Shown: piece after piece, positions 2,105-39,181 of the stretch
How positions within the stretch are numbered: the first letter of the stretch is position 1
Layout of the letters: each line of letters starts with the position of its first letter
From: a virus
Length of the DNA stretch: 40,183 bases
Direction: 5' to 3' (one strand)
Virus record (IMG/VR): IMGVR_UViG_3300046477_000356
Span: 1 to 40,183 of that record
Position numbers and translations under genes: made by a program
Notes under the pieces: generated by a model
Told to the model about the DNA's origin: nothing
Databases searched by the model: none
What the model saw: the letters and a program-made list of their open reading frames with translations, nothing else

Positions 2105-2306
2105 GTTCACCCCCGAGGAGATCCAGGTGATCGCCGATCGGCTGGCCCGGAACCTGATTGCGGAAATGCCCGAGGGGCTGGCCTGGGTGCTGCTATTCGC
2201 CGAACCGGGGCACGAGGGCGCATTGCGCTCCAACTACACCGAGCGGCAAGCGGTCGCGACCTCGCTGCGCGAGACGTTGCGCCAGGTCTATGGCGAGCAT
2301 GTCTAA
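2097..2306 (+). CDS. Hypothetical protein, 69 aa
   Basis: The ATG lies within the last codons of the upstream gene, with a GGAGC ribosome-binding element before it. The product (MARFTPEEIQVIADRLARNL...) is helical, has no membrane segment, and ends YGEHV. It overlaps the next ORF by eight bases. Function unknown. Confidence 0.55.
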   Translation: MARFTPEEIQVIADRLARNLIAEMPEGLAWVLLFAEPGHEGALRSNYTERQAVATSLRETLRQVYGEHV

Positions 2307-2607
2307 CCCCACCCTCGCCTCGCTGGAGACCCGCATCAGGATCCTGGAGCGCCACGTCGAGACGCTGGAGCGGGCCGCCAAGGTCACGCGCAGGCATAGC
2401 TCCGCCTCCGGTATCCTGCCTGCCGATGGCGGGCTCCGGAACTCGGAGGCTGCTCGCGAAAGAGGTATAGCCGAGCTACCCGTATCGTGGGCCAGACGCC
2501 TGCCCCGGCTTATAGTGTGGCGCCGGACGCCAAGAGTGTGGCATTCATTGCTCGGTTTCCTGGTAGGCCGCAGCCGGCCATCCCAGCGGTCGGAGCCCTC
2601 GCGGTGA
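2299..2607 (+). CDS. Hypothetical coiled-coil-like ORF, 102 aa, doubtful C-terminus
   Basis: The first 30 residues look genuine: LETRIRILERHVETLERAAK is a heptad-like coiled coil and the start overlaps the preceding stop. After about residue 35 the composition changes to Arg/Ser/Pro-rich, shadow-like sequence (WARRLPRLIVWRRTPR). The gene may therefore be frameshifted or have acquired a non-coding tail. The start is fairly sure, the end is not. Confidence 0.35.
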   Translation: MSNPTLASLETRIRILERHVETLERAAKVTRRHSSASGILPADGGLRNSEAARERGIAELPVSWARRLPRLIVWRRTPRVWHSLLGFLVGRSRPSQRSEPSR

Positions 2608-2762
2608 GTTCCCGCCCCTTTCATGCACGCGCCGGCGACTTCGGCCTTCACGGGCAGGAGGCCGCTACTGCGGGGCATGCATTGGGGTTGTTCGGAGAGC
2701 GGGAGTATCGTATCTCTGCCGACAAGGCGCTGGGGACCATGCCCGTGGACCAGCTGCCTTTA

Positions 2763-2801
2763 GAGGGCTCGGAGGTTCACGCCTCCGGGCTCTCGCCTTT
2801 T
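2763..2801 (+). terminator. Intrinsic terminator of left-arm operon
   Basis: A 13-bp stem with two G-U pairs (arms 2763-2775 and 2782-2794) closes a six-base loop and is followed at 2798 by four T. It stands downstream of the plus-strand small-gene run and before the convergent late operon, where a terminator is expected. Nothing else that I can support lies between 2608 and 2762. Confidence 0.7.
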
Positions 2802-2829
2802 CTGCTACATCACACCGGAGGATAGGTCA

Positions 2830-3009
2830 ATGACGAAGCTCACCGCGCCGTGGGGCTATAAGCCAATTCCCGGATATACGTTAGGCTCCAATTCCAGCAT
2901 CGACGTCCTACTAATCAAGGCTGCGCATTATAGGGTTCTGGCTCGCATTTTCGCGGGGATAACCGTGGTTACGGTTGCCATGGCACTCACCATCCTGCTT
3001 CAGCGGTAG
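2830..3009 (+). CDS. Small membrane-anchored protein, 59 aa
   Basis: A clear GGAGG lies eight bases before the ATG. The N-terminal half (MTKLTAPWGYKPIPGYTLGS) is polar, while the C-terminal third is one hydrophobic helix (IFAGITVVTVAMALTILL) ending QR, so it looks like a tail-anchored or single-span membrane protein. It sits after the terminator and is the last plus-strand gene before the convergent late operon. No family recognised. Confidence 0.55.
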   Translation: MTKLTAPWGYKPIPGYTLGSNSSIDVLLIKAAHYRVLARIFAGITVVTVAMALTILLQR

Positions 3010-3054
3010 CACGGCGACGACCTGCTACACCGTGGGCAACATGATCGTGTGCTA

Positions 3055-4341
3055 CTAAGCGTAGATCATCCCCTTCGCAAACCCGTGGGTCTGTAGCCGA
3101 TCCAGATCCCGGCTGAGGCGCTGCCCGATGTCGATGCGGTACTGATATTTGATCGGGGATTGCAGCCGTTCCGCTACCCGGTAGACCGCGCTTCGGGCCG
3201 CCTGCACGGAGTCTCCCGAACCTGTGACGACGCAAACGTAATCCCCCGCCGAGGCAAGCTGGCCCTTCTCCATCTGCGCCTGGGTCAGGTGAACCCGCTC
3301 CTCTATGCTAGGCACCACATTCCATATTGGCACCCCGACGACCTCATCGGTCTTGGCTCCCGGGTTCGGGTATGGTGGGAGCGATAGCACGACGCCGACC
3401 GCAACCTCGTTCATCCGCCGTGTGTTGGGCGGGTTCCCCTCGGCGAGGCCGGCCAAAAACTCCACCGGATCGTCGTGCAGCGAGCACTCGATCTGGAACG
3501 CGGGCCAGCCGAGCCGCATCGTGAACTCCAAAGGAAAGGGAGTGCCGTCCTCGTCCACGATGCAGTTCACGTCCACGTTGCCGACGTACCCCATGCTCAC
3601 CTGCCGGTCCTCGAAGGGCTTCAGCACCGCGTCGGCCATCTTCGAGGATTTGACGAGGCGCATCGTCGTGCCTTGTTCGCCCGTGGCATTTCCGATGTTG
3701 CCGGCGAACAGGGCCTTCTCCTCGAAATTCTCTTCCCAGCCCGGCGCGAAGCCATCGGGACCGATCCACGCACCGACCGCAAATTCCACCCCGTCAATCT
3801 TATCCTGCACCATCAGGCCGCTGGGGAAGCTCTTGCCCTCGCGCCGCCAACGATCAAGCCGCCATAAGATCGTCCGGGCGTCCTTGCCGACGACGCTGGT
3901 CGACTTGTCCCCCACGTCGCCGCAGGGCTTGACGGCGCACCCCTCGCCGCGCTTCTCGACATACTCCATCGCCTCGCGCAGGTTCTGGCATTGGCGGAAC
4001 GGTGGGACCGGGATGCCGGCGCGCTTGAAGGCGGCCATGCCGGCCAGGCGGTCCAACTCCCACGCCGCCGCCTCGGCGCACCCGCCGATGATCGGCACAC
4101 CCTCCGCGCGCCAGCGGTCGAGCTCGATCAGGTATTTGCCGTTGCCGCCGACGACGACCAGATCGGCCCAGCGCATCGACGGGCGCCAATCGGCCACCCG
4201 CTCGACGAGGCCGCGCCCGGCAGGTGCTTTCACGGCGTCGAACGCCCGGCAGAAATATTTAGGGGTATGCCCTAAACGATTTGCAATCACCGCTAGATCG
4301 AGCAGCCCATCGGCGGTATCTTCAATCAGGAGGATTCTCAT
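3055..4341 (-). CDS. PurD-like ATP-grasp ligase, 428 aa
   Basis: The whole protein follows the layout of phosphoribosylamine-glycine ligase (PurD; ATP + phosphoribosylamine + glycine to GAR): an N-terminal Rossmann-like domain (MRILLIEDTADG; ADLVVVGGNGKYL), the linker GVPIIGGCAEAAAWELDRLAGMAAFKRAGIPVP, a central ATP-grasp domain (CAVKPCGDVGDKSTSV; LMVQDKIDGVEFAVGAW) and a C-terminal lobe. PFPLEFTMRLGWPAFQIE aligns with the PurD Mg/substrate strand that usually reads IEFNxRFGDPE: the Glu and Arg are kept, but the Asn and the GDPE segment are changed. Length matches PurD (about 420-430). No other purine gene is nearby, so a different amine or amino-acid acceptor is possible. It is the last gene of the late operon and follows a relic of a second copy. 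Confidence 0.75.
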   Translation of the reverse strand: MRILLIEDTADGLLDLAVIANRLGHTPKYFCRAFDAVKAPAGRGLVERVADWRPSMRWADLVVVGGNGKYLIELDRWRAEGVPIIGGCAEAAAWELDRLAGMAAFKRAGIPVPPFRQCQNLREAMEYVEKRGEGCAVKPCGDVGDKSTSVVGKDARTILWRLDRWRREGKSFPSGLMVQDKIDGVEFAVGAWIGPDGFAPGWEENFEEKALFAGNIGNATGEQGTTMRLVKSSKMADAVLKPFEDRQVSMGYVGNVDVNCIVDEDGTPFPLEFTMRLGWPAFQIECSLHDDPVEFLAGLAEGNPPNTRRMNEVAVGVVLSLPPYPNPGAKTDEVVGVPIWNVVPSIEERVHLTQAQMEKGQLASAGDYVCVVTGSGDSVQAARSAVYRVAERLQSPIKYQYRIDIGQRLSRDLDRLQTHGFAKGMIYA

Positions 4342-4442
4342 GAGCCTATCATATCACTTCACAAAGATGCGCGAAGTGCCGCGCCCGTGGTGGAAACGTC
4401 TGTTCGCCAAACCGCAGTTTCGTTTAGCGCTGATGACGAGGA

Positions 4443-4763
4443 TTAGGGTCGGGCGAGGGGGTAGCGAGGCTTATTTTGTTCGGTGGCTTTAAGAGGCACA
4501 ATCGCGTCCCGAATCCCGGCGGCATTCTCAACTGCCGCCAAAAAAAGCGCGGCAATCGCCATCTCTGCCGCTTTAGGGTAATTCCAATTATCGACCGTGA
4601 CCTTGAAAGAGAGGGGCCCGAAACTGACCACGACACTCAAAAACTGGTTCAGCGGATCACTTTTGTCGGCCTGATTCAAGATTGAAACACGCACGGTGGA
4701 GGTGTCCACCTCAAGAGCCCTCATCGGGGCCTCATACGGCTTGCCAACTTCAACGATAGTCAT
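4443..4763 (-). CDS. Hypothetical protein, 106 aa
   Basis: The start is the ATG preceded by GGAGGA, five bases away. The product (MTIVEVGKPYEAPMRALEVD...) is beta-rich, with a C-terminal Ala-rich helix (AAEMAIAALFLAAVENAAG). Its codons are less GC-rich than those of most neighbours, like the beginning of the ATP-grasp gene downstream. It lies exactly between the ATP-grasp relic and the complete ATP-grasp gene, so it probably arrived together with the latter. No family recognised. Confidence 0.6.
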   Translation of the reverse strand: MTIVEVGKPYEAPMRALEVDTSTVRVSILNQADKSDPLNQFLSVVVSFGPLSFKVTVDNWNYPKAAEMAIAALFLAAVENAAGIRDAIVPLKATEQNKPRYPLARP

Positions 4764-4797
4764 AAACTCCTCCGAGTGACTGCCGCGGGTTTCCCGA

Positions 4798-4923
4798 TCA
4801 TCGGTTACGCGCACAAAGCTGGGCCTCCCGGGCCACCCCCGCGGCATTGCCGGAACTATAGCGGGCGATGACGGCGAGGTCGAGGAGGCCGTCCGCCGTG
4901 TCCTCGACAAGCAACAACCGCAT
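4798..4923 (-). pseudogene. 5' relic of a second PurD-like ATP-grasp gene
   Basis: The ORF begins MRLLLVEDTADGLLDLAVIA, matching the first residues of the complete ATP-grasp protein (MRILLIEDTADGLLDLAVIA) with two conservative changes, then runs 21 unrelated residues to a stop. Codons are mostly GC-ending and differ from those of the intact gene at many synonymous sites, so this is a divergent homologue and not a recent duplicate. Its ATG still overlaps the stop of the upstream 550-residue gene (TGATG), showing that it once occupied the normal operon slot. Confidence 0.8.
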
Positions 4924-6575
4924 CAGAATACCGGCTGCCGCGGCGGCTGATCGGGATCGCGCTTCGGCTGCGGCAACCCGCCCGATTGTCCCGGCGCGAA
5001 GCCGCCAGCTTGCGGCAAGGACAACCCCTGCAATGCTCGCGATGCCGGGTTCAAGAGCGCCGGCGCGGCGGGTTGCGGCCCCCTCATCCGCTGCTTGAAC
5101 ATCTGCTCGATCATCCGGTTCGGATCGTTCCAGAACCGGGTAAGCTCTGTCGCCCCCTTTGAACCGATGGCGAGCACCAGGGCTTTCGGGTTCCCCATGA
5201 GAGCGTGCAGGAACTCCCGAGAGGCGATGAAATTCCCAACCTTGTAAAGCGTGCCGCTGGGCCTGTTGGCGATCCGCTCGGCCGCCTTGGTCACGTCCTT
5301 GTCGAGAGAGCGCAGCGCCCCATACCTGTTGCGCAACTCCTGCCATCCCGGCCCCTCGGCAGCCTCGATCCCCTCATCGAGCGCCTGTCGGAGTCGCCGC
5401 GCGATCGGCTCAAGGGTGGTGTCGGGAAGCCCCAGGGCGGTCCTCTCGGCGTTGATGCCCTTGATGACGTTCTGGGCCTCAAGAGGCGTGTAAGATCCCT
5501 GCTTCTCGTAGAGGTCCGCTAAATCTTCCATTCGCCGTGCCGTCGCGGGATTGACGTGGGCTATTTCCGGCGTCTTTGCCAGGGCGCGCAAATCGCTGAC
5601 GACCGGGGCAAGCTCAATCCGCAAGCCACGTTCACCGGCACGCTGGGTCATCGGGTTCCATTGCTGGAACAGCGTTGTCTCGCTCTGGTCAAGCGCCTCA
5701 CTCATTTGCGCCACGGACCCGGGCACCGTACTGCCGGGTGGGAGCGGGGTTCCGTTCCGCGCGGTCAGGCGAAGGTTCGGTTGATTACCGATTATCTCGT
5801 CAACTCCAGTCGTGATCGCGTCGTTGTGCGCCTTGACCTGAGGAGCCCTGCTCCTCCGGCCTGTTCCGGGTAGCACGGCCTGCCGATAGAGGCTCACCGT
5901 CGCGGCGTCGCGCTCGGGAGTTGACGGAATCGGGGGCCTGACCGGCGGTGGCTCTGCGGGCGCTGCTGCCGGCGCTCCCGGCGGCATCTGCTCCGGCGTC
6001 AGCGGCGGCGATTGCACCGTGCGCGGCGCTCCTGTCGGCATCTGGACCGTCGCCAGCCTCGTGTTGCCACCCACCGGCCCTACAGGGGATGGCGGCTGTC
6101 CACCGAGAGTGAGGCGGGGCGGCCGCTCGGCCAACCCGGGCAGCGCCCGGCCTGGCGCAAACCCGCCCTGCCCAGCCATGCCCATCGCCATGCCGCGCGC
6201 CGCCTGCTCGGCCTGCGGTCCAGGCTGCATCTCGCCCGTCACCATCTGGCCCGGAGGCTTGACGATGCCCTCCCATAGGCTCTCCGCAATGCTTCGGCCA
6301 CCCGTGCCGATGGCGCGGCCGGCAAAGCGCGCAGGGCCGCCCTCGAGCTGCGACGCGCGCCCCTCGGGGATGCCCATGCCCACGGCCCCCTCAACAATGC
6401 CCTGTCCAACCCGGGCCGGCGCCGTCGCGACGCCGCTGACGGTGTTCCACAAGGATTCAATGATCGAGGGAGTGGCCCTTGGCGTAGGCGGCTGCAACCC
6501 GAGGCTTTCGAGCGTGGTCGTCGGCTTGGCGCCAGCAGCGGGCGGCGCGAGGCCGAGGTCGTCAAGCGTCGTCAT
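4923..6575 (-). CDS. Large virion-associated (ejection-type) protein, 550 aa
   Basis: The protein starts with two related peptides (TTLDDLGLAPP and TTLESLGLQPP), continues with a Gly/Ala/Pro-rich region to about residue 220 (GMAMGMAGQGGFAPG), then a helical domain (EQSETTLFQQWN-like region, QALDEGIEAAEGPGWQELRNRY, SREFLHALMGNPKALVLAIG) and a Pro-rich tail. Low-complexity linkers plus long helices, together with its position directly after a transglycosylase-bearing protein at the end of the late operon, fit internal/ejection proteins of podoviruses. I cannot assign an exact family. Its ATG overlaps the preceding TGA (ATGA). Confidence 0.6.
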   Translation of the reverse strand: MTTLDDLGLAPPAAGAKPTTTLESLGLQPPTPRATPSIIESLWNTVSGVATAPARVGQGIVEGAVGMGIPEGRASQLEGGPARFAGRAIGTGGRSIAESLWEGIVKPPGQMVTGEMQPGPQAEQAARGMAMGMAGQGGFAPGRALPGLAERPPRLTLGGQPPSPVGPVGGNTRLATVQMPTGAPRTVQSPPLTPEQMPPGAPAAAPAEPPPVRPPIPSTPERDAATVSLYRQAVLPGTGRRSRAPQVKAHNDAITTGVDEIIGNQPNLRLTARNGTPLPPGSTVPGSVAQMSEALDQSETTLFQQWNPMTQRAGERGLRIELAPVVSDLRALAKTPEIAHVNPATARRMEDLADLYEKQGSYTPLEAQNVIKGINAERTALGLPDTTLEPIARRLRQALDEGIEAAEGPGWQELRNRYGALRSLDKDVTKAAERIANRPSGTLYKVGNFIASREFLHALMGNPKALVLAIGSKGATELTRFWNDPNRMIEQMFKQRMRGPQPAAPALLNPASRALQGLSLPQAGGFAPGQSGGLPQPKRDPDQPPRQPVF

Positions 6576-8614
6576 TGAGCCGCTTTCGGCGTGTACCCGA
6601 ACTGGTCGATGATGATCTTTTTCCCGGCCTCTGGTGTCAGCGCGCCCGAGTCGATCGCCCTGAGAACGTCATCAGGCGACTTGTAGGCCGACCCCGCCGC
6701 GCCCTGCGGCGGAGTGGCGGGCGTCTCGGGCTTGCGCATGGCCGGCGGCTGGCCGATGGGCGTAATGCCCTCCATCGCCGGCCCCACCGCCTCGCGCATC
6801 AAGCTCATCTCGTAGTCGAGCTGCTGAATACCGCGCTCGATCTGCCCCTGATTGAAGGCGGTCGAGAGCAGTTCATAGGCATGGTTCTGCTGGGAGTCGG
6901 TCAAACGTCCGGTGCGGCTGACGGTCGCCGCATAGATGTTGAGGTACGTGTTTAGCGCCTCTCGGAAGGCTACTGTTTGCGGCGATCCAGCCTGCTCCTG
7001 CAGCCAGTTGGTGAAGCGGTTTGCCGCCGGAAACTCCGTGCGCGGCACAGCCTTTGATGTCTCGACGACCTGCGGCGCGGCTTTCTTCGCCTCCTCGATG
7101 CCGAAGCCGATCTGCGCCGCCCGTCCGCCGCCGACGATCATGCCGTGGCGCTCGCCAGCGTATTGCGCCTGGACATCGGGCGTTGAGGTAGCCGTGAGCC
7201 CCAGCGCGTGCTGGGCAGCGGGGGTTGCCGTAATGACCAGATTTCGCATCCCCGGCTGGAACCCAAGGGACGGCATCTTGCCGGTTCGGACATACTCGAC
7301 AGTCGCCGCCCACACGTCCTGCCGTACCCCGGGAGGAGCCTTGTTCGGCATCCCCTCCCACTTCTCGGGAAATTGCAACTCGGCCCCCAGTTCCACCCCT
7401 GGGCGCGCTGCTCCGACCTTCGTGGCCCCAGCCGGCGCGTCAACCGGAAGCGATGGTTCGCCGGGCTTGACCCACATTGATTGCCCAGTCTTCGGGTCTG
7501 TCAGCAACGTGTACCCTTTATTTTGCTGTGCCGACTTCTGATCTTGTCGCTTGTTCCGCTCGGCCCATTCCTTCTCGGCCACGCCGACCTGAACCTTGTA
7601 TTGCTCCATCTGCTGTTGGTATTGCCGCGTCGCCTCTGGGCCGTGCTGCGCGATATAGTTCTGCAGCATCCGTTCCTTGTCTTGCCAAGGAGCGTTCGGA
7701 GCACGCTGATTGATACGCTGACGCACCGCGTCGATGTTTAGATTTGGCACCGAGGGCATCGGGATTTTAGCAATCGCGGCCTGAAGGCTATCCTGCGGCC
7801 CCGCATCGGTCGCGGTCTGCGGCCCGGCCTGCGCCATCTGATTTGCGCGCTCGGTGTCGGCCGGCGTCATCGGTCGTTCCGAGCCGCTGACGCCCTCTTG
7901 ACCGATTGCCGCTCTGGCTTCGTCAGAGCCGATGTCATACCGATAGCCACCCGCGCCAACCGTTCCAGCGGTTGGCTGCTGAGCATCGGTTATGGTCTGT
8001 GGGCCAGCCGAGGCCATTTGTGTGCGAGGAGCGGCCATGCCAGAGCCACCCGCCCCTGCCCCGCCTCCGATGGCGGCGGCAAGCCGAGAGTTATACGGCG
8101 CCCACGGACTGTAACCCTGTTCGTTGTAGAGCCTCTGGGCCACCCGCTTCTGGACATCGACGGGAGCCGACATCGCCGTAGGGTATTTCGTGATGTCCAC
8201 CCCTTCCTTTGGGGCCATCTCTCGCCATGTCGAGTTGATAAACTGCCACGGCCCGCTGGCCGAGCTGGTCGGGTTCTTGATGTTCCGTCCGCCGCTTTCG
8301 TACTTGGCGATCAATGAGAGCGGGTCGCCCCCCGATGTGCCAACCGAAGACGCGCCCCCGGGCATCGCCCCGCCGCCCGGGAAGCCACCCGAGGTGCCGC
8401 CGACCGGCTGAAAACCTTGCCCCCCGCCGCTGATATTGCCGAAGTCGATGTTCGCCAACTCGTTCTGGCCCTGCCGGTCCTTCTGCTCCTGCTGATACCT
8501 CGCCAGCGTGATCGCGAGCATCTGCTGGCGCTCCTGCGCCGCCTTCTGCTGCTGGTACTGCTGCGCGAACATGCCGAGGCCGGCGCCAATCGCGGCGAGG
8601 GGAAAGCCGGGCAT
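6572..8614 (-). CDS. Internal virion protein with lytic transglycosylase domain, 680 aa
   Basis: Residues 1-55 form a hydrophobic patch followed by a Gln-rich helix. Residues about 98-185 carry a transglycosylase/lysozyme-like fold: LSLIAKYESGGR with candidate catalytic Glu106, then SGPWQFINSTWREMA, the usual GxxQF motif, and YSPWAPYNSRLAAAIG. The remainder is helical and Gln/Ala-rich. Family knowledge: such enzymes cleave peptidoglycan locally while podovirus ejection proteins form a conduit across the envelope. Position between two other large internal-type proteins supports this. Confidence is high for the enzymatic domain, moderate for the ejection role. Confidence 0.75.
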   Translation of the reverse strand: MPGFPLAAIGAGLGMFAQQYQQQKAAQERQQMLAITLARYQQEQKDRQGQNELANIDFGNISGGGQGFQPVGGTSGGFPGGGAMPGGASSVGTSGGDPLSLIAKYESGGRNIKNPTSSASGPWQFINSTWREMAPKEGVDITKYPTAMSAPVDVQKRVAQRLYNEQGYSPWAPYNSRLAAAIGGGAGAGGSGMAAPRTQMASAGPQTITDAQQPTAGTVGAGGYRYDIGSDEARAAIGQEGVSGSERPMTPADTERANQMAQAGPQTATDAGPQDSLQAAIAKIPMPSVPNLNIDAVRQRINQRAPNAPWQDKERMLQNYIAQHGPEATRQYQQQMEQYKVQVGVAEKEWAERNKRQDQKSAQQNKGYTLLTDPKTGQSMWVKPGEPSLPVDAPAGATKVGAARPGVELGAELQFPEKWEGMPNKAPPGVRQDVWAATVEYVRTGKMPSLGFQPGMRNLVITATPAAQHALGLTATSTPDVQAQYAGERHGMIVGGGRAAQIGFGIEEAKKAAPQVVETSKAVPRTEFPAANRFTNWLQEQAGSPQTVAFREALNTYLNIYAATVSRTGRLTDSQQNHAYELLSTAFNQGQIERGIQQLDYEMSLMREAVGPAMEGITPIGQPPAMRKPETPATPPQGAAGSAYKSPDDVLRAIDSGALTPEAGKKIIIDQFGYTPKAAQ

Positions 8615-15486: not shown

Positions 15487-15716
15487 TGCCCTTGTGCCCT
15501 GATCTGCTCGCGCATGCTCCGCAGCAACTCAACCGCCTGCTGGCAGATCGCGAGTTGCGTCACGTTCTGGCAGCCGATGGCCCCGAGGGTCTGCACGATC
15601 AGTTGCGCCTGCTCGACCGTCACCTCAAGGTGCAGCGGCGGCACGCCGGTAATGGGCTGCTGGGCGAGCGCGGGCCCACCCAGCAGCAACGCACCGATTA
15701 TCGCCAGCCGGCGCAT
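15483..15716 (-). CDS. Exported small helical protein, 77 aa
   Basis: A signal peptide (MRRLAIIGALLLGGPALAQ, cut ALA|Q) leads to a helical mature domain of about 58 residues with two cysteines in GCQNVTQLAICQQAV, spaced to allow one disulfide. The start overlaps the TGA of the upstream 172-residue exported protein. No family recognised; it belongs to the exported block. Confidence 0.65.
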   Translation of the reverse strand: MRRLAIIGALLLGGPALAQQPITGVPPLHLEVTVEQAQLIVQTLGAIGCQNVTQLAICQQAVELLRSMREQIRAQGQ

Positions 15717-16234
15717 CAGGTCGGGCTGAAGTAGCCGACCGCCTTCACGCATTGGAACGTCGAGGCGGAGGTCGCCTGCGGCAGGATCGTCACCGGCGTC
15801 CCCGGCACCGTCGATTTCAACCCCGTGGGGTAAATCTCGGAGACCAGGAACTCGGTGGTCGGAACGCTTGCCGCCGACGCCGTGACGTTGGCGAGCCATG
15901 CCGGGGTGCCGGTTATGTTCGTCGCCGTCCACAGGGTCGCCGAGGAGGCCGCCGTCGCGTTCGGCAGGTACTCGATGTAAAGCCCCGTCAGGTAGACGAA
16001 ATTGCCGGCCGGCGGGGTGATCGTGACCGTCAGGTTGGCGATCGACGCCTGCGACGTGGTGCATGACGTGGCGGCCGGAGCGGCGAAGAAGGCCGCCGCG
16101 TCCGCCTTCGAGCCCGACTGCGTGACGATCAAGCCCTGCGATTGCTGGGCCTCCACGACCTGCGGAGTCCCGAGAAGCCCGACGCCAAGGGCAACCGCCG
16201 ATGCGCCGCCGAGCAATGCCTGTCTCATGTCCAT
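15716..16234 (-). CDS. Exported protein, paralogue 2 of a 172-aa pair
   Basis: It starts MDMRQALLGGASAVALGVGLLG..VEAQQ behind AAGGAGAA, giving a twin of the preceding gene. The mature domain is beta-rich with two cysteines (TSCTTSQ and FQCVKAVGYFSPT). Shared motifs with its neighbour: LTVTITPPAG-x-Y, LYIEYLPNATA, EIYPTGLKSTVPGTPVTI. Both proteins are exactly 172 residues. The role is unknown; the surface-like fold and block context suggest a spike or adhesin component. Confidence 0.7.
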   Translation of the reverse strand: MDMRQALLGGASAVALGVGLLGTPQVVEAQQSQGLIVTQSGSKADAAAFFAAPAATSCTTSQASIANLTVTITPPAGNFVYLTGLYIEYLPNATAASSATLWTATNITGTPAWLANVTASAASVPTTEFLVSEIYPTGLKSTVPGTPVTILPQATSASTFQCVKAVGYFSPT

Positions 16235-16259
16235 GATGGTTCTCCTTGGCTCAGGCGGT

Positions 16260-16778
16260 TTAGGTCGGGTTGAAATACCCGACCGCGTGGGCGCAAATGA
16301 AGGCCGAGGCCGTGGTCGCGCTCGGCACGATGGTCACGGCAGTCCCGGCCACGGTCGACTTCAGCGCGGTCGGATAGACCTCGTTGATGAAGTACGGGAC
16401 GCTCGGGTTGGCCGCAGCCGCCGTGGTCGTGCCGGTCAGCCATTGCGGGCTCCCGGTCAGGTTCGTCGAGGTCCACAGCGTATTCGAGGTTGAGGCCGTC
16501 GCGTTCGGCGCCACCTCGAAATACATGCCGGTGATGTAGACGTACTGCCCGGCAGGCGGGGTCAGCGTGATCGTCAGGTTCGCGACCGTATCCTGCGAGG
16601 TCGTGCAGGAGGTGCGGGTGTTGCCGGTGATGAACGTCGCCGCGTCCGCGCGGGACGCCGACTGCGTGACAGCGGTGCCCTGCGACTGCTGCGCATCGAC
16701 GATCTTCGGAACCCCGAGAAGCCCGACGCCCAACGCGAGAGCGGAAACGCCTCCGAGTAGTGCTTGCCTTGTGTCCAT
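16260..16778 (-). CDS. Exported protein, paralogue 1 of a 172-aa pair
   Basis: The ATG is chosen over an upstream GTG because GGAG lies five bases before it, giving the same length as its paralogue. The signal peptide is MDTRQALLGGVSALALGVGLLG..VDAQ. The mature part repeats the paralogue's pattern (LTITLTPPAGQYVYITGMYFEVAPNATA; EVYPTALKSTVAGTAVTIV; FICAHAVGYFNPT) with two conserved cysteines. A tandem duplication followed by divergence is likely. Confidence 0.7.
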   Translation of the reverse strand: MDTRQALLGGVSALALGVGLLGVPKIVDAQQSQGTAVTQSASRADAATFITGNTRTSCTTSQDTVANLTITLTPPAGQYVYITGMYFEVAPNATASTSNTLWTSTNLTGSPQWLTGTTTAAAANPSVPYFINEVYPTALKSTVAGTAVTIVPSATTASAFICAHAVGYFNPT

Positions 16779-16845
16779 GACCACTCCTTTCGCGCCAGGG
16801 TTGCCTACCGTCCGACCGGGCCTGGCCCCGGCGCTTCGGCGGTAT

Positions 16846-36600: not shown

Positions 36601-36881
36601 GCAACCTGGTGCGCGGCTCCGGACAACTCGGGCTCGCCGAGCAGGAGCGCGCTCTCGCCATGATTCGCTCCGGCGCCCGCCAGCGCGACGTCGCGGCCAT
36701 CCTCGGCGTCACCAAGAACACGATCGCCGGAATCTGGCGCCGCCACGGCAGGCCGGCCACCCCCGAGCCCACGACGCTCTGGACCCGCTGCGCCGCCCTG
36801 GAAGCCCGCCTCGCCGCCGTCGTCGCCGAGAACGACGGCATCGGCCGCATCCCCGGCTCGAACGAGGCGCCGCGGCGGTGA
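36597..36881 (+). CDS. Helix-turn-helix protein, 94 aa
   Basis: GTG start in a GTGA overlap. Residues about 13-45 are EQERALAMIRSGARQRDVAAILGVTKNTIAGIWRRHGRP, a resolvase/GcrA-like HTH (RDVAAILGVTKNTIAGIW). A short coiled coil (ALEARLAAVVAEN) follows. It probably binds DNA and may regulate the methyltransferase gene to which it is coupled by GTGA. Confidence 0.7.
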   Translation: MSNLVRGSGQLGLAEQERALAMIRSGARQRDVAAILGVTKNTIAGIWRRHGRPATPEPTTLWTRCAALEARLAAVVAENDGIGRIPGSNEAPRR

Positions 36882-37066
36882 GCGTCCGCATCATCACCGG
36901 CGACGCGCTGACCGAGTTGAACCGGCTGCCGGAGGGCAGCGTGCATTGCTGCGTGACCTCGCCGCCGTTGCGTACTTGCGGCGGTGATGTTATTCTGGGC
37001 GCATGGAACCAGAAGATTTGGCCTACGCGGCGGGGGTCATCGACAGCGACGGATATATCGGCGTGA
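36878..37066 (+). pseudogene. N-terminal stub of beta-class DNA methyltransferase (copy 1)
   Basis: VSVRIITGDALTELNRLPEGSVHCCVTSPP is the N-terminus of a phage beta-class methyltransferase ending in the catalytic S-P-P of motif IV; the next codon should be Tyr or Trp but reads LRTCGGDV and the frame runs 32 codons into the homing endonuclease gene. Composition is GC-rich like the phage. The GTGA overlap with the HTH gene shows that this is the original 5' end. Confidence 0.8.
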
Positions 37067-37482
37067 AGCGGAACACGTATTCGATGCGACGAGTAGGTGA
37101 TTGCGCCCAGCCGACGTACAGCGAGCGTGTCTGCGTCAAACAAGTTGAGCCGCAGGCTGTCTATCTACTCAAGGACATGTTCGGCGGGACGCTAACGATG
37201 GGAAAGCCGACCGCAAAGAAGGGCCGCCCGCTTCATACGTGGCAGACGACAGACATAAAGGCGGCAGACTGTCTCCTTGCAATCATGCCGTACCTTCGGA
37301 TCAAACGAGAGCAGGCGTTGAACTGCCTCGATTTGCGTGCGGTAAAGGAGCGCAGCAAGTCGGCCAGGGTATCGCGTGGGCGGGGGCATCGAGGTTCAGC
37401 GCCGCGCACCGACGAGCACTCGTCTCTCATGGAAAAGGCATATCAGAAGGGGAAAGCACTGAACGCGGTCGGCGTTCGATGA
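37003..37482 (+). CDS. LAGLIDADG homing endonuclease, 159 aa
   Basis: The dodecapeptide YAAGVIDSDGYIGV with Asp near residue 14 is a single LAGLIDADG motif, followed by VKQVEPQAVYLLKDMFGG, TWQTTDIKAADCLLAIMPYLRIKREQALNCLDLR, the standard alpha/beta fold. A single-motif enzyme would act as a homodimer, cutting a long recognition site in intronless or inteinless methyltransferase alleles. It ends with an ATGA overlap to the replacement N-terminus. Confidence 0.85.
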   Translation: MEPEDLAYAAGVIDSDGYIGVKRNTYSMRRVGDCAQPTYSERVCVKQVEPQAVYLLKDMFGGTLTMGKPTAKKGRPLHTWQTTDIKAADCLLAIMPYLRIKREQALNCLDLRAVKERSKSARVSRGRGHRGSAPRTDEHSSLMEKAYQKGKALNAVGVR

Positions 37483-37577
37483 GTGTGCAGATAATCACAG
37501 GTGACGCATTGGGAGTGCTCAAGGGTATGGCGTCTGAGAGTGTGCATACGTGCATCACTTCTCCGCCATACTATTGA
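37479..37577 (+). CDS. Replacement N-terminus of DNA methyltransferase (copy 2), 32 aa
   Basis: MSVQIITGDALGVLKGMASESVHTCITSPPYY is about 60% identical to copy 1 (17 of 28 aligned residues) and includes the full catalytic SPPY. Its TGA lies at TATTGAA, where the body of the enzyme continues in another frame. The stop overlaps a TTG start (TTGA) of the next frame. Either reinitiation makes a two-piece enzyme or the gene is frameshifted. Confidence 0.7.
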   Translation: MSVQIITGDALGVLKGMASESVHTCITSPPYY

Positions 37578-39181
37578 ATGGGCTGCGGGATTACGGGACG
37601 GCGACGTGGGAGGGAGGCGATCCAGCGTGCGATCACAAACAAGGCCGGCCTGGGGCGGGGCGGGCGGACGGTATCGTTGACGAGCGTGGCCAACGCAACC
37701 GCGATGGTGTCGGGTCAATGGGCGGCGATTGCAAGTGCGGCGCTCGCCGAATCGACGCGCAGCTCGGCCTGGAAGCGACGCCCGACGCCTACGTGGCGGC
37801 GATGGTCGGGGTGTTCCGCGAGGTGCGCCGCGTGCTGCGGAGCGACGGCACTCTCTGGCTCAACATCGGCGACAGCTATGCGAACGACGGCAAGTGGGGC
37901 GGCAAGACCAGCGGCAAGCATGTCCCGGCGCTTGCCGGTGATACGGGCATTGGCCGCCGTCGGCAGAACACCGGGTTGAAATCCAAAGACTTGATCGGCA
38001 TCCCGTGGGCTTTAGCAAAGGCGCTCCGCGATCCCTACTATACCGGAACGATCAGCCGCGAAGTCGACCGGGTGTGGCTCGCCGCCATTATCGACGGCGA
38101 GGGATGCTTCTTCATTCACAAGCGAAAGGCTGGCACATCAGCCTATAGCAGCTTTGTTCGGGCCGACGGCACGGAGGCACATTATTCCCGCACGGCGGAT
38201 ACCTACGAGGTTGGTCTCGAAATTTCGAACACCAGCAAAGCCTTAATAGACAGGGTCGCCGAGATAGTGCCGGGAGGTACGTTTACAACCCAAGGCCCGG
38301 AGCAAAACGCACGCCGAAGGCAGACAATTTATCGCTGGCGGCTTGCGCCGAACGAAACGAAGCGGCTGGCGCAAGAATTATATCCGCACCTGGTAGCGAA
38401 ACAGCATCAAGCTCGGTTAATTTTTTCCTGTCCATCCAGCGGCGATGCCGGTGCCGCCGCACATGAGGCGATGATGGCTCTGCATAATGGAGCAGGTACA
38501 TCCGTCAACTTTCCCGCGCCACCATCACTATTTGAGCCGGGATGGTATCTAAGACAGGACATAATATGGGGAAAACCCAACCCGATGCCCGAGAGCGTCA
38601 CCGATCGCTGCACCAAGGCGCACGAGTACCTGTTCCTGCTGAGCAAGAGCAAGCGGTACTATTTCGACGCCGGCGCGGTCAAAGAGAACCGCAGCCATGA
38701 TGAGGACGCCAACACCTTTCGTGGCGGTTGCTACGTTTCAGGCGATACCGACAACGGCACGCTGGGAAAGCGCCGAATTCCGGGCAACAAGCGGCACAAA
38801 CATCAGGCCGCCTACGAGCAAGGCGATCATCGCTCACGGACGAAAGCCGGGCTGCTGGCGTATTGCGACAGGGAGCGCGCCGCCGATCAGAACGATCTCG
38901 GCTCCCGTAATAAGCGCTCGGTCTGGACGATAGCGACCGCGCCGTTCCCCGAGGCGCACTTCGCCACCTTCCCGCCCGCCCTCGTCGAGCCGTGCATCAA
39001 AGCCGGATGCCCCGCCGGCGGCACCGTCCTCGACCCCTTCCTAGGCGCCGGCACGACAGCCCTCGTCGCCGATCGCCTCGGCCGCTCCGCCATCGGCATC
39101 GAACTCAACCTAGCCTACGCCGAGATGGCCCGCCAGCGCATCGCCGACGACGCCGGACTTTTCTTCCAAGCCGCCAAGTGA
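37574..39181 (+). CDS. Beta-class DNA methyltransferase body with in-frame homing endonuclease domain, 535 aa
   Basis: The protein begins LNGLRDYGTATWEGGDPACDHK, which follows the SPPY motif in phage N6-adenine/N4-cytosine methyltransferases. It continues TLWLNIGDSYANDG, KDLIGIPWALAKALRD, then an insertion of about 169 residues, then GWYLRQDIIWGKPNPMPESVTDRCTKAHEYLFLLSKS and motif I VLDPFLGAGTTALVADRLGR near the C-terminus. The catalytic motif is not in this chain. It would use S-adenosylmethionine to methylate DNA, perhaps against restriction. Activity is doubtful unless the split and insertion are removed or complemented. Confidence 0.75.
   Translation: MNGLRDYGTATWEGGDPACDHKQGRPGAGRADGIVDERGQRNRDGVGSMGGDCKCGARRIDAQLGLEATPDAYVAAMVGVFREVRRVLRSDGTLWLNIGDSYANDGKWGGKTSGKHVPALAGDTGIGRRRQNTGLKSKDLIGIPWALAKALRDPYYTGTISREVDRVWLAAIIDGEGCFFIHKRKAGTSAYSSFVRADGTEAHYSRTADTYEVGLEISNTSKALIDRVAEIVPGGTFTTQGPEQNARRRQTIYRWRLAPNETKRLAQELYPHLVAKQHQARLIFSCPSSGDAGAAAHEAMMALHNGAGTSVNFPAPPSLFEPGWYLRQDIIWGKPNPMPESVTDRCTKAHEYLFLLSKSKRYYFDAGAVKENRSHDEDANTFRGGCYVSGDTDNGTLGKRRIPGNKRHKHQAAYEQGDHRSRTKAGLLAYCDRERAADQNDLGSRNKRSVWTIATAPFPEAHFATFPPALVEPCIKAGCPAGGTVLDPFLGAGTTALVADRLGRSAIGIELNLAYAEMARQRIADDAGLFFQAAK
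38033..38539 (+). mobile_element. In-frame LAGLIDADG insertion 2 inside methyltransferase
   Basis: Between ALRD and GWYLRQ, normally adjacent or nearly so in the family, lie about 169 codons with EVDRVWLAAIIDGEGCFFIHK (LAGLIDADG-like), GLEISNTSKALIDRVAEIVPGG and LAQELYPHLVAKQHQARLIF. No intein ends are seen (no N-terminal Cys/Ser splice block or C-terminal His-Asn). The frame stays open through the insert and into the following exon. Confidence 0.7.

Follow-up and report, generated by a model that had tools for sequence, protein, structure and literature searches.

Apparent replacement of the 5' end of a phage ATP-grasp gene beside a relic of its old start

The ATP-grasp gene of the window (the whole 40,183-nucleotide stretch of viral DNA analysed here) is a hybrid. 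Judged from sequence comparison, a block of about 520 bp entered after codon 20 of the native gene together with a substitute 5' end; foreign sequence in what is now the complete gene is confined to the first ~30-45 codons, and its body is native. The old start survives upstream as a dead stub. In other phages a homing endonuclease forms part of this layout, which hints at a way for such insertions to spread while the gene they enter survives. The locus comprises the following features.

4923..6575, minus strand: 550-aa gene upstream of the stub, an open reading frame with homologues directly upstream of the intact ATP-grasp gene in relatives
4798-4923, minus strand: stub open reading frame of 41 codons, beginning MRLLLVEDTADGLLDLAVIA
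4864..4923, minus strand: stub proper, matching native ATP-grasp codons 1-20 by nucleotide identity to relatives and by the N-terminal tree
4798..4863, minus strand: non-homologous tail of the stub frame, running into inserted DNA up to the stop, with no convincing match to native codons
4855..4883, minus strand: sigma-70-like promoter TCGACC-17-TATAGT over the stub/insert junction (consensus match only, 9/12)
4342..4863, minus strand: inserted, foreign block of ~522 bp between stub and complete gene, missing from L002-L007, L009 and L010 and of lower GC
4443..4763, minus strand: 106-aa orphan gene, the cargo, with a strong Shine-Dalgarno sequence (GGAGGAG)
4369..4384, minus strand: terminator-like hairpin between the 106-aa gene and the ATP-grasp gene (consensus scan, not above shuffles)
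3055-4341, minus strand: complete ATP-grasp gene, beginning MRILLIEDTADGLLDLAVIA
4207..4341, minus strand: foreign 5' end, about codons 1-45, from nucleotide identity to the L001 start and a GC3 changepoint at codon 29
3055..4206, minus strand: native body, PurD-like with GARS domains, from nucleotide identity to intact relatives and TIGR00877

The stub and the start of the complete gene share 18 of 20 residues, the two differences being the conservative changes L3I and V6I. This likeness is not due to chance, because the match reaches E = 1.6e-7 in tblastn (database of 43 sequences) and E = 8.8e-7 in blastp (all-against-all of the window's frames). At the nucleotide level the stub's codons 1-20 are 63% identical to the window's own complete copy, with a different triplet at 16 of their 17 shared degenerate codons. 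Over the same codons the stub is 80-87% identical to the starts of the intact genes in L002, L005, L006 and L009, and the N-terminal tree clusters it with L006, L005 and L002. The end of the 550-aa gene, which is unnamed and presumed to belong to the virion module, overlaps the stub start as TGATG on the minus strand; the intact ATP-grasp gene of L006 has exactly this overlap, and the other intact relatives have TAGTG. Because of these identities, the tree grouping and the L006 overlap, the stub is the old native start of the gene. After codon 20 the tail has a counterpart in none of the relatives compared, and a search of the insert and the stub tail for native codons 21-100 gave no convincing match. 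A preliminary description of this DNA had reported the 20-residue repeat with its two conservative changes, the many synonymous differences, the retained original TGATG coupling, and the 106-residue gene followed by the complete gene, and each of these holds. It had also proposed searching for intact ATP-grasp genes directly coupled to the 550-residue gene. These are found in the IMG/VR relatives L002-L007, L009 and L010, where the gene begins at or overlaps the upstream gene's end and there is no insert.

The complete gene changes character along its length. Its GC3 rises from 0.45 to 0.84 at codon 29 (changepoint, permutation p = 0.002), the latter value being the local composition. Codons 1-40 are 72% identical in nucleotides to the HNH-linked start of L001, as against 55-63% to the intact relatives, and the window's replaced start matches that of L001 at 81% over codons 1-18. 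Codons 61-428 are 76-80% identical to intact relatives and to all of the close group, and the body tree places the window inside the close clade with the intact relatives. Since GC3, nucleotide identities and trees all differ between 5' end and body, the gene is a hybrid; the position of the crossover is uncertain and lies at about codons 29-55. The hybrid reading frame is intact. The protein is a PurD-like ATP-grasp enzyme rather than PurD proper, because its match to TIGR00877 purD (E = 6e-23) scores 81 bits, below the NCBIfam cutoff of 288; its PDB profile matches are PurD enzymes. The preliminary description had called the complete gene less GC-rich and read it as replacement by a homologue from another phage. 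The first point stands for the insert and the first ~30-45 codons, to which the lower GC is limited, and not for the remainder. Of the second, the abandoned old start and the entry of foreign DNA from another phage lineage stand, and the replacement of the body does not.

The 106-aa gene has no relatives in Pfam, PHROGs, NCBIfam or phages. Its sole viral_contigs match (L044) proved spurious, being antisense with stops, and its predicted fold was of low confidence (pLDDT 50) and was not used. The sigma-70-like site is possibly the promoter of this gene. No recognisable nuclease was found in the insert with Pfam, PHROGs or NCBIfam. A faint opposite-strand resemblance to a nuclease remnant was unsupported, the only strong match in that search being the antisense of the shared ATP-grasp start. 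Rfam gave no intron at the insert and an RNA structure search likewise returned nothing. A group I intron or an intein was rejected: the reading frame of the stub is closed by a stop, the full gene starts on its own and lacks no codon, and there is no Rfam match.

Inserts also occur in the ATP-grasp genes of two relatives. In L001 a 25-codon stub is followed by ~900 bp of inserted DNA carrying, on the minus strand, a gene for an HNH_3 endonuclease (Pfam E = 1.5e-11; the PHROGs matches are endonucleases) and then by a complete gene with a low-GC start, in which codon 38 marks a rise in GC3 from 0.39 to 0.90 (p = 0.001). The stub of L011 is about four codons long, and the insert after it has a 210-aa phrog_4652 gene that is not a known nuclease; GC3 in the ATP-grasp gene of L011 changes from 0.54 to 0.90 at codon 81 (p = 0.001). 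A strong low-to-high 5' jump in GC3 is confined to these three insert-bearing genes (window, L001 and L011; p <= 0.002), and none of the intact ATP-grasp relatives shows a comparable one. The preliminary description had suggested a phylogeny of the two N-termini, and this separates them: the stub falls with L006, L005 and L002, and the complete copy joins the replaced start of L001 (0.91) and then that of L011 (0.82), though the placement of L011 could partly be long-branch attraction. In the body tree the three are scattered, which is incongruent with the N-terminal tree. Because the stubs end at different codons (~4 in L011, 20 in the window, 25 in L001), no single cut site is demonstrated.

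Further searches covered HNH_3 loci (n = 40), where the stub form occurs in L001 itself and is clear in none of the 39 others; a scan with the N-terminal start, which returned the L001 contig alone again; and cellular genomes, which hold no close relative. Several separate features of these genes were seen along the way. The L011 cargo gene is flanked at 1240-1420 and 2180-2330 by short repeated motifs like GGTATGGTCCGGT / CCGAACCACACC. In L030 and L031, at about 6649-7560, an in-frame LAGLIDADG_3 insert of ~300 aa follows ...GPN in the ATP-grasp gene and starts CYSADTEVLT, an insertion that looks intein-like. From codons ~397-403 onward GC3 falls from 0.83 to 0.45 and 0.31 in the ATP-grasp genes of L006 and L008, which suggests an exchange of the 3' end; no downstream duplicate was found there.

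A second locus of the window, at a methyltransferase gene, is laid out in the same way.

36878..36967, plus strand: native, GC-rich methyltransferase stub, codons 1-30 (..CVTSPP)
37003..37482, plus strand: homing endonuclease with the motif AGVIDSDGYIGV (phrog_5046 endonuclease, E = 6e-17; relatives in L111, L196 and L197)
37479..37574, plus strand: low-GC replaced copy of methyltransferase codons 1-32, overlapping the endonuclease gene as ATGA
37580..39181, plus strand: native methyltransferase body (PF01555, E = 1e-38)

As the preliminary description had recognised, this METHYLTRANSFERASE locus repeats the form of the ATP-grasp locus, and it does so with stub, endonuclease gene, divergent start and native body. 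That description left out the likely agent, a homing endonuclease, which is visible in L001 and in all four methyltransferase loci. All four close members of this endonuclease family that were found (one in the window, and L111, L196 and L197 from IMG/VR) have a methyltransferase stub on one side and a divergent methyltransferase start on the other. The endonuclease gene shares the strand of the methyltransferase in the window and in L197, whereas in L111 and L196 it runs the opposite way. In L111 the stub shares 20 of 22 residues with the full copy at 67% nucleotide identity, and GC3 runs from 0.95 in the stub through 0.61 in the replaced start to 0.95 in the body. The stub of L196, at about 11 codons, is short and the weakest of the four. 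A survey of methyltransferase loci (n = 80) gave no clear further case, and the distant family members inspected in Gordonia, Mycobacterium, Caulobacter and Streptomyces phages have no duplicated start.

The replaced start of the window's methyltransferase is out of frame with the body by 5 extra nucleotides (tgaat). At 37560-37590 it ends ...SPPYY TGA and the body resumes after these 5 nt, where a TTG overlapping the stop (TTGA) could serve as a restart. In L196 the frame shifts by 4 nt at this motif (SPPY|WGLRDY). The window's methyltransferase also contains a second endonuclease domain, in frame, at about 38060-38425 (phrog_5046, aa 171-292, E = 3e-17), followed by an AT-rich stretch coding GWYLRQDIIWGKPNP. 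Other duplications and nested genes were also noted. In L198 (Gordonia phage Bibwit) the annotation joins two pieces into a cytosine methylase at 2110-3819, and a LAGLIDADG endonuclease gene is nested in it; Keitabear and Hans have separate genes annotated at this locus. L139 has two complete tandem methyltransferase copies (2446-5417; 51% identical), and the window has tandem duplicated genes of 172 and 174 aa at 15716-16784 (61% identical).

A moderately probable account of the ATP-grasp locus is that the insertion was driven by homing-endonuclease repair that brought in a divergent 5' end, the native gene surviving as a hybrid. A nuclease would cut a sensitive allele at its conserved 5' end; after resection, the break would be repaired from a donor carrying the nuclease, or other cargo, beside a divergent allele. 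On the right side exchange would proceed by homology inside the gene, and on the left side the join would fall inside the old start. The outcome would be a stub, the cargo and a hybrid gene in which the first ~30-45 codons of the divergent allele are fused in frame to the native body. For the window's ATP-grasp gene, whose insert holds no nuclease, we infer this repair step as likely. A nuclease may once have been there and been lost, the 106-aa gene may have taken its place, or there may never have been one; the ATP-grasp locus of L001 and the window's methyltransferase still carry nuclease genes. Replacement of a 5' end beside cargo would fit co-conversion of the neighbouring target gene. 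In favour of the account stand the intact coupled genes of relatives, the likeness of the stub to intact starts and of the full copy to the L001 start, the GC3 jumps, the incongruent trees, the HNH_3 gene of L001, the four methyltransferase loci and the absence of an Rfam intron. Weighing against it are the lack of a nuclease in this insert, the non-nuclease cargo of L011, the differing stub ends, the single HNH_3 locus of 40 with the form, and the distant endonuclease relatives that have no duplicated start. Since nearly every synonymous site differs, the incoming 5' end probably escapes further cutting. Stub and full copy are saturated for synonymous divergence. The window pair lies slightly above the expectation from random codon choice (p 0.01-0.02) and the other four pairs do not, so active recoding beyond random codon choice is overall unsupported (1 of 5 pairs, marginally), and recoding as an escape from cutting is an interpretation rather than an observed result. 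We tentatively raise the idea that phages contain natural cleave-and-rescue elements, in which homing endonucleases in conserved 5' coding regions of useful genes carry an uncuttable, synonymously divergent copy. If true, such elements spread without intron or intein.

At the window's ATP-grasp locus the serious rival, which we regard as possible, is a moron-like cassette of promoter, 106-aa gene and terminator that came from a divergent phage by ordinary recombination, with no endonuclease ever involved. One side would have been joined by homologous exchange inside the ATP-grasp gene, the other by an illegitimate event in the old start. The absence of a nuclease from this insert, its low GC, its promoter-like and terminator-like sites (consensus matches only) and the different non-nuclease cargo of L011 at the same junction all suit such a cassette. 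It sits less well with the relationship of the window's replaced start to the HNH-linked start of L001 (79% nucleotide identity over codons 2-20) and with the occurrence of the same architecture with nucleases in at least five loci.

The remaining explanations are far less probable. That the whole ATP-grasp gene is a xenologue which replaced the native one agrees with its foreign 5' end, but GC3 and identity return to native levels past about codon 30-60 and the body groups inside the close clade, which makes this very unlikely. The stub still has a start codon and overlaps the 550-aa gene, as a functional leader peptide or small protein might. However, the 41-aa frame with this tail occurs in no relative, the stubs of L001 and L011 differ from it in length and tail, and the conserved independent peptide that the preliminary description had named as contrary evidence was not found among the relatives compared; a functional peptide is hardly credible. 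An assembly chimera of two related phages is a natural concern for a metagenomic virus contig, yet it too is given almost no weight, as the form recurs in separate contigs with different cargo and appears twice in this contig in different genes, and the hybrid reading frame is intact.

The usual explanations for endonuclease genes inside coding sequences are introns, inteins and split genes. The recurring inserts with a replacement 5' end represent a further way in which endonuclease elements can live inside genes. Such replacement creates hybrid phage genes and misleads gene phylogenies, and its relics are recognisable and can be searched for at scale. The pattern is a natural analogue of engineered cleave-and-rescue drives.

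Like phage morons, the window's insert is an extra gene of unusual composition at a gene junction, possibly with its own promoter and terminator. Morons are not known to exchange the 5' end of the following gene and leave a stub behind. A literature search, with most subscription journals outside its scope, found no phage precedent for the form. The closest architecture is that of fungal mitochondrial mORFs, at the 3' end: a LAGLIDADG or GIY-YIG gene is inserted in a coding sequence together with a divergent duplicate of that gene's end, forming a hybrid gene (Beaudet et al., 2013, PMC3630166; Allomyces atp6 cited there). The native relic in that system is 91.2% identical to a relative and 63.5% to the inserted end (PMC3630166). 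Both systems show a divergent duplicate of one gene end beside an insert, and in both the relic resembles relatives and the new end does not. They differ in that mORFs affect the 3' end (C-terminus) in mitochondria with the relic downstream, whereas here the 5' end is affected in a phage with the relic upstream; the window's ATP-grasp insert also lacks the homing endonuclease, which L001 and the window's methyltransferase have. Intronless homing in T4-like phages by the free-standing SegF and MobE (PMC2988022; model restated in PMC12724721) provides the established logic for the proposed repair, as a free-standing nuclease acts and repair brings along the donor's resistant target allele. The T4 gene, however, is intergenic, its product cuts at a distant site and no stub has been described, unlike the insertion inside a coding sequence with a partial duplicate seen here. 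In phage genes split by homing endonucleases, such as T4 gene 60/mobA and Aeh1 nrdA/mobE (PMC2988022), the nuclease is likewise inserted in a coding sequence, but two working fragments are left, whereas here a complete gene is rebuilt. The ATP-grasp case is thus a 5'-end, phage variant of known endonuclease-linked gene-end replacement.
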